A stretch of 64,000 bases of DNA from Alteripontixanthobacter maritimus (GTDB lineage: Bacteria; Pseudomonadota; Alphaproteobacteria; Sphingomonadales; Sphingomonadaceae), in NCBI RefSeq assembly GCF_003340475.1, contig NZ_QBKA01000002.1:1373501-1437500 (forward strand), written 5' to 3'. The position numbers were made by a program, and so were the translations under genes. A model generated the notes under the pieces. The model saw only the letters and a list, made by a program, of their open reading frames with translations. It did not search any database and had not been told where the DNA came from. Shown here piece after piece: positions 32,481 to 35,021 of this stretch. Position 1 is the stretch's first letter. The number at the start of each line of letters is the position of its first letter.

Positions 32481-32552
32481 AGCGCGCCCTTCCCCGGCAT
32501 CCCGCATCTGCTTCACTGCCACCCATTCACCTCCTGTATGACGGAGACGACC

Positions 32553-33335
32553 ATGGCCAGCGCGCCGCAAACGCAACCGCAACTTCCTTTGTTCTACAAC
32601 GATCTCGTTCCGCTCAACAGCAAGGAACATCGCGGCTTCCATAGCCGAACGGTCGATTCCGCCCCGTGGCTGGCAAAACAGCACGCCATCCCATTGACGG
32701 CCGATGAATTCATTCAGGCGCAGCGTCATTTCCCAATCGTATTTTCTTCGGGCGACAATCCCCTGCCATTGGCTCTGATGGGTCTGAACGAAGGCGTGAA
32801 CACCTTCCTCGACGATAACGGGAAGATTACCGAACCCGTCTATATGCCCGCTTACATTCGCCGCTACCCGTGGCTGCTGGCGAAGCTTACGAACGACACC
32901 GATGAACTTTCGCTTTGCTATGATCCGACCTGCGAAGCGATCGGTGACTTCAAGGAAGGCGAGCCGCTTTTCGATGACAAGGGCGAAGCGTCCGAGGCGA
33001 CCAAGGGCGTGCTCGACTTCTGCGAGAAGTTCGAACAGTCCGGCGCGCGAACCAAGCAATTCATGGAAGAACTGACATCGCGCGAATTGCTGATGGAAGG
33101 CGAAGTTTCAATCCAGGCGGGCGGCGATGACGCCAAGCCGTTCCTCTATCGCGGTTTCCAGATGGTCAATCAGGAAAAACTGAACGAACTGGATGACGAG
33201 ACCATCCTTACCTTCCACAAGAACGGCATTCTGGCGCTTTGCCAAGCGCACCTCATGTCGCTCGACGTGATGCGGAGCATTTTCCAGCGGCAGCTCGATC
33301 AGGGCAAAGGCCCAAAAGCTGACGCCAAGACCTGA
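32553..33335 (+). CDS. SapC family protein
   Basis: A 260-residue cytosolic protein from the ATG at 32553 (MASAPQTQPQ, preceded by GGAG at good distance; an upstream ATG at 32538 lacks one). It has the SapC pattern: LPLFYNDLVPLNSKEH at the start, IVFSSGDNPLPLALMGL in the middle and YIRRYPWLLA. SapC-type proteins are named after a Campylobacter S-layer secretion gene, but the biochemical role is unknown and no S-layer gene is near. It follows the FAD oxidase by 72 bases in the same direction. Confidence 0.85.
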   Translation: MASAPQTQPQLPLFYNDLVPLNSKEHRGFHSRTVDSAPWLAKQHAIPLTADEFIQAQRHFPIVFSSGDNPLPLALMGLNEGVNTFLDDNGKITEPVYMPAYIRRYPWLLAKLTNDTDELSLCYDPTCEAIGDFKEGEPLFDDKGEASEATKGVLDFCEKFEQSGARTKQFMEELTSRELLMEGEVSIQAGGDDAKPFLYRGFQMVNQEKLNELDDETILTFHKNGILALCQAHLMSLDVMRSIFQRQLDQGKGPKADAKT

Positions 33336-33363
33336 TTGTACTGGGATACCAGTCACATAAAAT
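33336..33363 (+). promoter_or_regulatory. candidate sigma-70 promoter of the small RNA
   Basis: TTGTAC (33336-33341) and TAAAAT (33358-33363) are spaced 16 bases apart and match the vegetative -35/-10 consensus at four and five of six positions. Transcription would start near 33370, immediately before the first hairpin of the candidate RNA. The -35 element starts right at the end of the SapC gene. Confidence 0.45.
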
Positions 33364-33369
33364 TGGAAA

Positions 33370-33540
33370 TGTCGGCCCGGCCGCGGACTTGAACCGCGCC
33401 GGGCCGATACTTATATTCATGGTGTCCGGGTGGTACCGCCCTCATGGTCCATCCGGCATGGTGCGCCCTTCCCCCCTTTAGGCGCACCACCTCCCTGAAC
33501 CTTGGCCGCCCTGCGCATTCGCGTAGGGCGGTTTTTTCTT
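33370..33540 (+). ncRNA. candidate structured small RNA with C-rich loops
   Basis: Between a promoter-like sequence and a strong terminator lie about 170 bases that code no convincing protein but fold into four separate hairpins. The stems are 33372-33407 (TCGGCCCGG with CCGGGCCGA), 33426-33456 (CCGGGTGG with CCATCCGG), 33460-33488 (GGTGCGCC with GGCGCACC) and the terminator stem. The loops and linker are C-rich (GCCCTCAT, CTTCCCCCCTTTA, CACCTCCCTG), like anti-Shine-Dalgarno trans-acting RNAs of other alphaproteobacteria. I do not recognise it as SRP RNA, 6S RNA, tmRNA or RNase P RNA. An alternative is a long 3' UTR of the SapC gene. Confidence 0.5.
33506..33540 (+). terminator. strong intrinsic terminator of the candidate small RNA
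   Basis: CCGCCCTGCGC (33506-33516), a four-base loop, GCGTAGGGCGG (33521-33531, one mismatch) and six Ts (33532-33537) make a textbook Rho-independent terminator on the plus strand. It converges with the N-formylglutamate amidohydrolase gene. Confidence 0.85.
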
Positions 33541-33576: not shown

Positions 33577-34590
33577 TTATTCGGCGGCAAGCGGATAGGG
33601 GCGACCAGACATAGCAGCCATCTCGCTGGCCAATTCCCGCACCAGCCCCGCTATGATCCTGGCGACAGAAGACAGGCGTGGTCCGGGTTCGCTCAAACGA
33701 CTGTCCAGGTAAGCGCTCCTGCAGACTTCCAGCTGGATCGCGTGGATATTCCGGCGCGGTGCGGCATGGCGATCCAGTACATATCCGCCAGCATAGGGTC
33801 TGTTGTGTGCTGCCAGACGCTCCTGCCGCGCCAGATATTGCATCGCCTTGGCGACCAGTGCCCCGTCAGCCGATGCTCCGAACCGGTCGCCAACCACCCA
33901 TTCCGCAGCGCTTTGCCCAATATGCGCTGATTTCAGCGGCGGCATGGAATGACAATCGATGAGCAGCGCCCCTCCCCAATGATCGCGGATACGTTCGAGC
34001 GCGCCGGACAAGGCCCGGTGATACGGGCGGTGCGTTTCCGAAACGCGTGCCTCGACTTCTGAAGCGCTCAGCGGTTTGCGCCATATTTCACCGTGCCCGG
34101 CCATACGGCGTGGGATCAACCCCAACCCGCTGCGCGCGCGACGGTTCAGGCCTTCCAACCGGCTTGCGTTGTCGCTCTTCTCCGGCCTGCCACCGCTTAC
34201 CATGCCCCAATCCATATCCTCGACCGCACGGTTCAGATCGATGATTGCTCTGGGTGTATGCGCGATCAGCAACGGCGCCCCGGTAGCTTTGGCGACCTCG
34301 TGTGCAACCAGGTCCATGTACCTATCTTCCAGCCTTAGCTTCGCATCGTCAGGCCGGCGCATATTTGCGGTAATCTGGTCCGGATAAGTGCGGCCGGCAT
34401 GGGGTACCGCCAGCAACACCGGTACAGCGGGAATTGCAGCCATTTCAAGCATGAATGGCTCGGCTGCCAGTCCGGTTCGCACAGAATGCGCAGGAGACTG
34501 CGACTCGTCGTCCAATTTGCCATCATCATTCAACACCCTCCGGTGCTGCCCATACCGGCATGTGATGTCAAAGCGTAGCGACGGGTTCAT
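33577..34590 (-). CDS. N-formylglutamate amidohydrolase family protein
   Basis: Zinc-dependent amidase family that splits N-formyl-L-glutamate to glutamate and formate in one form of histidine breakdown. The 337-residue product has LAVPHAGRTYP, EDRYMDLVAHEVA, DLNRAVEDMDWG and the LLIDCHSMPP metal-ligand segment, matching FGase-like proteins. No hut genes are in the window, so the physiological substrate is uncertain. An in-frame ATG further in (MLEMAAIPAVP) could be the real start; the 46-residue N-terminal extension has no recognisable domain. Confidence 0.82.
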   Translation of the reverse strand: MNPSLRFDITCRYGQHRRVLNDDGKLDDESQSPAHSVRTGLAAEPFMLEMAAIPAVPVLLAVPHAGRTYPDQITANMRRPDDAKLRLEDRYMDLVAHEVAKATGAPLLIAHTPRAIIDLNRAVEDMDWGMVSGGRPEKSDNASRLEGLNRRARSGLGLIPRRMAGHGEIWRKPLSASEVEARVSETHRPYHRALSGALERIRDHWGGALLIDCHSMPPLKSAHIGQSAAEWVVGDRFGASADGALVAKAMQYLARQERLAAHNRPYAGGYVLDRHAAPRRNIHAIQLEVCRSAYLDSRLSEPGPRLSSVARIIAGLVRELASEMAAMSGRPYPLAAE

Positions 34591-34631
34591 TGTCAGCGAC
34601 TTGTTAAATGGTTGGGGGTATAGGCGCGGAC

Positions 34632-35021
34632 ATGACCGAACCTGCCCCCTTACGCATACTCCTTGCCGAAGACGATGAATCCATGCGCATCTATCTTGCG
34701 CGTGCCTTGGAACAGGCGGGCTATGCCGTGCAATCGGTCGATCGCGGGACAGCGGCGATACCGTTGCTGGAAAGCGAAAGTTTCGACCTGCTATTGTCGG
34801 ACATCGTCATGCCGGAAATGGATGGCATCGAACTGGCGCAGAAATGTAACGAGCTGAGCCCGCGCACCAAAGTCATGTTCATTACGGGTTTCGCCGCCGT
34901 CAGTCTGAAAGCGGGGCAGGAACAGCCCAACGCCAAGGTGCTGTCGAAGCCGTTTCACCTGCGCGATCTGGTGGCAGAGGTCGACCAGTTGTTTTCCGAA
35001 CAGCGGCAGGCCACCCTCTGA
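34632..35021 (+). CDS. cpdR: cell-cycle response regulator CpdR
   Basis: Single-domain receiver that, when unphosphorylated, delivers substrates such as CtrA-pathway proteins to the ClpXP protease. The start at 34632 (MTEPAPLRIL) gives 129 residues. The acidic pocket is Glu13-Asp14-Asp15, the phosphorylation site is Asp57 in LLSDIVMPEMDGIEL, and the conserved MFITGFAAV and VLSKPFHLRDLV segments set CpdR apart from general receivers. There is no output domain. Its presumed kinase CckA is also in this window. Confidence 0.9.
   Translation: MTEPAPLRILLAEDDESMRIYLARALEQAGYAVQSVDRGTAAIPLLESESFDLLLSDIVMPEMDGIELAQKCNELSPRTKVMFITGFAAVSLKAGQEQPNAKVLSKPFHLRDLVAEVDQLFSEQRQATL

Follow-up and report, generated by a model that had tools for sequence, protein, structure and literature searches.

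The 64,000-nucleotide stretch of the Alteripontixanthobacter maritimus genome analyzed here (the window) carries a segment, at 33336-33540 between sapC and a convergent N-formylglutamate amidohydrolase (FGase) gene, that, judging from sequence comparison, very probably contains a real small regulatory RNA gene of about 115 bases. The features of this locus are:

32538-33335, + strand: sapC (PF07277), upstream neighbor
33370-33409, + strand: hairpin enclosing the -35 box, from the fold; probably the 3' end of the sapC mRNA
33389-33417, + strand: predicted promoter, -35 TTGAAC, 17 bases, -10 TATATT (consensus scan; aligned block in 17 relatives)
33424-33538, + strand: predicted sRNA, about 115 nt (match of 101.3 bits to covariance model R1, fold, covariation; 5' end placed from the -10 box, 3' end from the T run)
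33423-33458, + strand: hairpin 1 of the RNA, with a C-rich loop at about 33436-33444 (fold; covariation)
33459-33489, + strand: hairpin 2 of the RNA, counterpart of the hairpin before the core in αR8 RNAs (fold; covariation)
33487-33503, + strand: linker, consisting of the αR8-like core CCACCUCCCU (33487-33496) and then GAACCUUG, unpaired from 33490 (sequence; conservation)
33504-33537, + strand: intrinsic terminator with six Ts at 33532-33537 (terminator/promoter scan and fold; 99.1% of cells paired in relatives)
33577-34590, - strand: FGase gene (PF05013), convergent neighbor and landmark of αR8 genes
34608-35021, + strand: receiver-domain response regulator gene (PF00072, domain match), next gene, which we take to be CpdR

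The original prediction placed four consecutive hairpins and a terminator behind a TTGTAC-16-TAAAAT promoter, in an RNA of about 170 bases starting near 33370. All four hairpins are present and strong, and the terminator is near-perfect, with 33366-33540 folding at -96.1 kcal/mol (z -7.5; none of 200 shuffles as good), as are the C-rich loops and linker that it described. The promoter and the extent of the RNA had to be revised. Of 156 relatives, 109 have a promoter pattern at the place of TTGAAC-17-TATATT, compared with 14.7% of shuffles, whereas only 11 have the same pattern at the place of TTGTAC-16-TAAAAT, which is the shuffle level (7.8%); we therefore take the former as the conserved promoter and reject the pair at 33336, for which relatives show the pattern no more than chance. 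Since the conserved promoter zone is 33389-33417 and its -10 box ends at 33417, the RNA would start near 33424 and comprise three hairpins (the second and third of the four first proposed, and the terminator), ending at about 33538. The three-hairpin fold of 33423-33539 reaches -62.3 kcal/mol, with a z of -6.4 relative to shuffles.

The first of the four hairpins thus lies upstream of the inferred start, with the conserved promoter falling inside it. Although very strong in the window and some relatives, it is not a family-wide feature: at least six pairs enclosing the -35 box are found in 52 of 71 relatives but also in 58.5% of shuffles, and its mean z is -0.64 against -0.12 in an upstream control that comprises only 17 usable sequences. 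Of 42 relatives with an adjacent sapC, 10 have a strong hairpin here (z < -2), against 1 of 29 others, and for this reason we read it as probably the 3' end of the sapC mRNA rather than as part of the sRNA; both its inclusion in the sRNA and its interpretation as a conserved dyad were rejected. The -35 box also sits in the loop of long hairpins with unrelated stem sequences at eight other loci (L003, L004, L006, L007, L009, L170, L253, and L255), and these too are probably sapC 3' ends, though a promoter within a hairpin loop is odd.

The association with sapC raises the alternative that all four hairpins simply form a structured 3' UTR of the sapC mRNA, without a separate sRNA function, or yield a sapC-derived RNA. 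Indeed, sapC lies directly upstream in 87 of the 100 named loci with enough flank, and an adjacent sapC goes with a stronger first hairpin. We consider this reading improbable, as the other 13 loci keep the RNA without sapC directly upstream, locus L008 has the FGase gene and no sapC match, and a conserved promoter stands just 5' of the RNA.

Conservation points to an RNA rather than a peptide. In 100 relatives, complete + strand ORFs within the RNA encode at most 34 amino acids (median of the longest, 12); a single stop-free frame runs right through in 40 to 59 of these relatives, but none is open in all 100, and RNA lengths differ modulo 3, in agreement with the original prediction that no protein frame is convincing. 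Covariation in the stems, proposed as a check on that prediction, is strong. Across the 17 sequences found by blastn, 22 of 30 predicted pairs have changed on both sides with pairing preserved, and in a 100-locus alignment that was itself fitted to the model, 95.6% of cells pair and the covariation score is 0.644, compared with 0.195 in shuffles and 0.04-0.13 when the partner is slid. In these 100 relatives, nine of nine pairs of hairpin 1 and seven of eight of hairpin 2 have changes on both sides. The hairpin 1 loop contains a run of at least three Cs in 99 of 99 relatives, of the CCCUCAU type in 51 and the CCCCUUU type in 41 of 100. The hairpin 2 loop in the window (33468-33480) is also C-rich and spans 13 nt; it is 3-6 nt long in 88 of 100 relatives.

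Conservation across Sphingomonadales was likewise borne out. By blastn, the site is present in 17 of 59 genomes, the source genome included, all of them Sphingomonadaceae; their alignment contains the blocks CTTGAA and TATCTT/TAGATT, then two stems, the first with a C-rich loop and the second short, and finally CUCCCUGAACCUUGGCC and the terminator. The covariance model R1, built from the same 17 sequences, matches 318 of 396 Sphingomonadales genomes (by hand count, 257 Sphingomonadaceae and 61 from other families), so the predicted sRNA is present in a large share of sphingomonad genomes; the 78 genomes with no R1 match include several complete Sphingomonadaceae genomes. In wider samples, R1 matches 58 of 289 genomes of the class and 19 of 200 of the phylum, 18 of the latter within the class and one outside. 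Separately, a record titled Actinobacteria bacterium 21-64-8 (L142) carries the exact core pattern and is probably a mislabelled or mixed metagenome assembly. The loci of alignment A3 were chosen by that exact pattern, which makes the core invariant there by construction, and this invariance is not counted as evidence.

The original prediction could not match the RNA to SRP, 6S, tmRNA, or RNase P RNA. No Rfam family reaches its gathering score at this site, and the same holds for 16 homologous loci. The ar7 family (RF02342), which likewise has three hairpins with C-rich loops, scores 30.5 bits in a 181-base search; this is half of its gathering score of 60 bits, the site is absent from the three matches of a whole-genome ar7 search and from the Rfam search with longer flanks, and none of the 16 homologous loci reaches the cut-off, leaving membership in ar7 very improbable. 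CrfA, at 12.9 bits on the other strand, was taken as a chance match, and EcpR1 was dropped since, in the text available to us (PMC4414408), it sits downstream of divK-pleD and has a different loop. None of the RNAs among the literature matches listed is identifiable with the window sRNA; neither suhB nor MmgR was found among the Zymomonas sRNAs in the available portion of PMC7064620, and suhB is not named in the corresponding portion of a Sphingopyxis genome paper (PMC4741004).

Instead, several observations connect the RNA to the αR8 sRNAs (suhB, RF00519; MmgR of Sinorhizobium; SisA of Caulobacter), with which it shares the FGase neighbor, a hairpin before an unpaired CCUCCCU core, and an intrinsic terminator after it. 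Available excerpts of PMC12559287 describe a single αR8 copy adjoining the FGase gene in most species and an unpaired UUUCCUCCCU common to the family. By that positional criterion the window RNA occupies the usual αR8 location, and the FGase gene is the convergent neighbor in 90 of the 96 named loci with enough flank. Its core CCACCUCCCU keeps 7 of the 10 letters of its αR8 counterpart UUUCCUCCCU, the CCUCCCU part included. In the blastn-found set, CUCCCUGAACC is present in 17 of 17 sequences and CCUCCCU in 16, and the linker CCUCCCUGAACC, unpaired in the fold, is kept in 16; the exact UUUCCUCCCU is found in only 2 of these 17 close relatives, compared with 15 of 15 copies from other families, having been lost in the window and the remaining relatives. 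In four Sphingobium loci (L111, L146, L163, and L172), sapC and the sRNA are kept with no FGase gene directly downstream, and FGase is absent from the 1.5-kb flank of 6 of 18 R1 loci from other Sphingomonadales families, some of which lie near contig ends.

Model searches in both directions point the same way. The suhB model gives 25 bits at the window site, below the Rfam gathering score of 41, and similarly finds the FGase-site RNA at 25-30 bits, below the cut-off, in the source genome and at least five relatives. Model R3, built with a hand-written secondary structure from 15 other-family αR8-type copies that are linked to FGase (14 score above the suhB cut-off; L079 was not scored), produces one match in each of 56 of 56 Sphingomonadaceae loci tested (E 1e-10 to 0.013) and nothing further at E <= 1 in the 172,670 bases searched; in the 64-kb window, its sole match is the sRNA site (22.7 bits, E 1.9e-4). 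The core and terminator account for most of the R3 score, which is low at some loci (L003, E 0.013). Conversely, of 10 class-level R1 loci that were fetched, seven come from outside Sphingomonadaceae, and six of these seven are suhB RNAs above cut-off; in all 14 other-family Sphingomonadales genomes searched both ways, the best R1 match overlaps a suhB-model match (12 above cut-off, 2 below).

The source genome also carries a canonical suhB copy (L018, 52.2 bits), with no FGase gene in its flank and adjoining a CoA transferase gene. All 14 canonical suhB loci examined in Sphingomonadaceae lie away from FGase, and among the fetched suhB loci above cut-off, FGase is in the flank of 12 of 16 from other Sphingomonadales families but 0 of 13 from Sphingomonadaceae.

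On the basis of the shared position, the R3 matches at 56 of 56 loci, and the sole R3 match in the window, we propose that the αR8 gene at the FGase locus is the ancestor of this RNA, which would be a remodelled Sphingomonadaceae orthologue of αR8, encoded as a stand-alone sRNA with its own intrinsic terminator; to this reading we assign a probability of roughly 80%. Shared ancestry with the canonical copies is the conclusion to which the comparison leads, with orthology resting on position and model scores. Being below the Rfam cut-off and without the exact 10-mer, the predicted RNA is a diverged variant rather than a standard member. Several features count against the αR8 reading, namely the 25 vs 41 bits, the 7 of 10 core letters, a length greater than that of SuhB and MmgR (61-77 nt in the portions of PMC6563040 and PMC8401924 available), the 78 Sphingomonadales genomes with no R1 match, the 6 of 18 other-family R1 loci with no FGase in the flank, the low R3 scores at some loci, and the lack of enrichment for core complements near start codons in the source genome. 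The suhB score below cut-off, the extra hairpin, and the coexistence of a canonical copy elsewhere in the genome could indicate a new sphingomonad family with no relation to αR8, which acquired its CCUCCC linker by convergence and lies beside FGase by chance. We regard this as unlikely given the complete R3 recovery, the identical genomic place, the retention of the exact 10-mer in 2 of 17 relatives, and the ability of R1 to match suhB RNAs of other families. The suggestion of a sphingomonad-specific regulator has to be revised, as the RNA does not represent a new class: it is homologous to αR8 and sits in the FGase-convergent position already known for that family. By comparison alone, then, the locus shows conserved structure with covariation, a conserved promoter, a conserved position, and αR8 homology.

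Relative to αR8 RNAs, the major addition is hairpin 1, which is extra with respect to the 77-position suhB model and whose C-rich loop is kept across Sphingomonadaceae. Hairpin-like sequence 5' of the core is also found in several other-family αR8 copies, so the extra hairpin may predate Sphingomonadaceae. SuhB of Sphingopyxis granuli TFA, likewise a sphingomonad RNA with an αR8 name, is, at 61 nt, far shorter than the window RNA and may correspond to a relocated canonical copy.

What is reported for αR8 RNAs offers a guide to possible function. In the portions of the sources available, SuhB of strain TFA acts with Hfq on the thnR 5' UTR, lowers thnR translation, and has a role in catabolite repression of a pollutant-degradation pathway (PMC6563040); SisA is a repressor of many mRNAs, likely by means of the 10-mer, and affects carbon-starvation responses (PMC12559287); and MmgR is Hfq-dependent, lowers PHB accumulation, and affects carbon storage (PMC8401924), with no direct pairing reported for it in those same portions (PMC8401924; PMC12559287). 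The window sRNA would be transcribed from TTGAAC-17-TATATT and, as its αR8 relatives suggest, bound by Hfq, and its unpaired CCUCCCUGAACC linker would pair in trans with GGGAGG-like Shine-Dalgarno regions, blocking translation; the extra 5' hairpin may provide a second pairing site in its C-rich loop. The RNA is probably an anti-Shine-Dalgarno sRNA that depends on Hfq, carries two C-rich sites, and helps to switch off translation of other genes. The original prediction of an RNA of this type is well matched by a conserved, structured, noncoding RNA with C-rich single-stranded sites, while the notion that it may repress many mRNAs is borrowed from what αR8 RNAs do in other species.

The source genome encodes Hfq; the protein has two tandem Hfq domains in one ORF, 187 amino acids from the ATG (G000:C2:1143061-1143477, - strand; L247/L248). 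Perfect complements of the core before ATG start codons show no enrichment in this genome (3 vs 4 in the control). Summed over 36 genomes, they number 35 vs 10 in the control, of which five fall on the antisense strand of αR8-type sRNA genes (G004, G012, G017, G039, and G046), and ordinary Shine-Dalgarno sites could be the source of the rest. We claim no target from these pattern searches in the source genome or the 36 genomes.

A tentative scenario, which we consider possible rather than probable, is that in Sphingomonadaceae the ancestral αR8 gene beside FGase evolved to encode an sRNA with two pairing sites. Its old CCUCCC linker would be joined by a separately conserved C-rich 5' loop that recognizes a second group of mRNAs, perhaps by pairing across the start codon, and relocated canonical copies would continue to perform the original αR8 functions. 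The start-codon idea derives from the complementarity of CCCUCAUGG to CCAUGAGGG. The locus would provide a clear case of an sRNA changing its pairing sites yet keeping its genomic place. At its Rfam cut-off, the suhB model picks up canonical copies elsewhere in the source genome and the listed relatives but overlooks the RNA that occupies the usual αR8 position there. Since αR8 RNAs elsewhere affect carbon storage, carbon-starvation responses, and catabolite repression, the remodelled orthologue is also a promising candidate for a post-transcriptional regulator with broad effects in bacteria that are used for biodegradation. Finally, some Sphingomonadales genomes have many suhB-model matches (10 in G010 and 13 in G057 at E <= 0.05, some of them below cut-off), which suggests that αR8 RNAs have been duplicated repeatedly.
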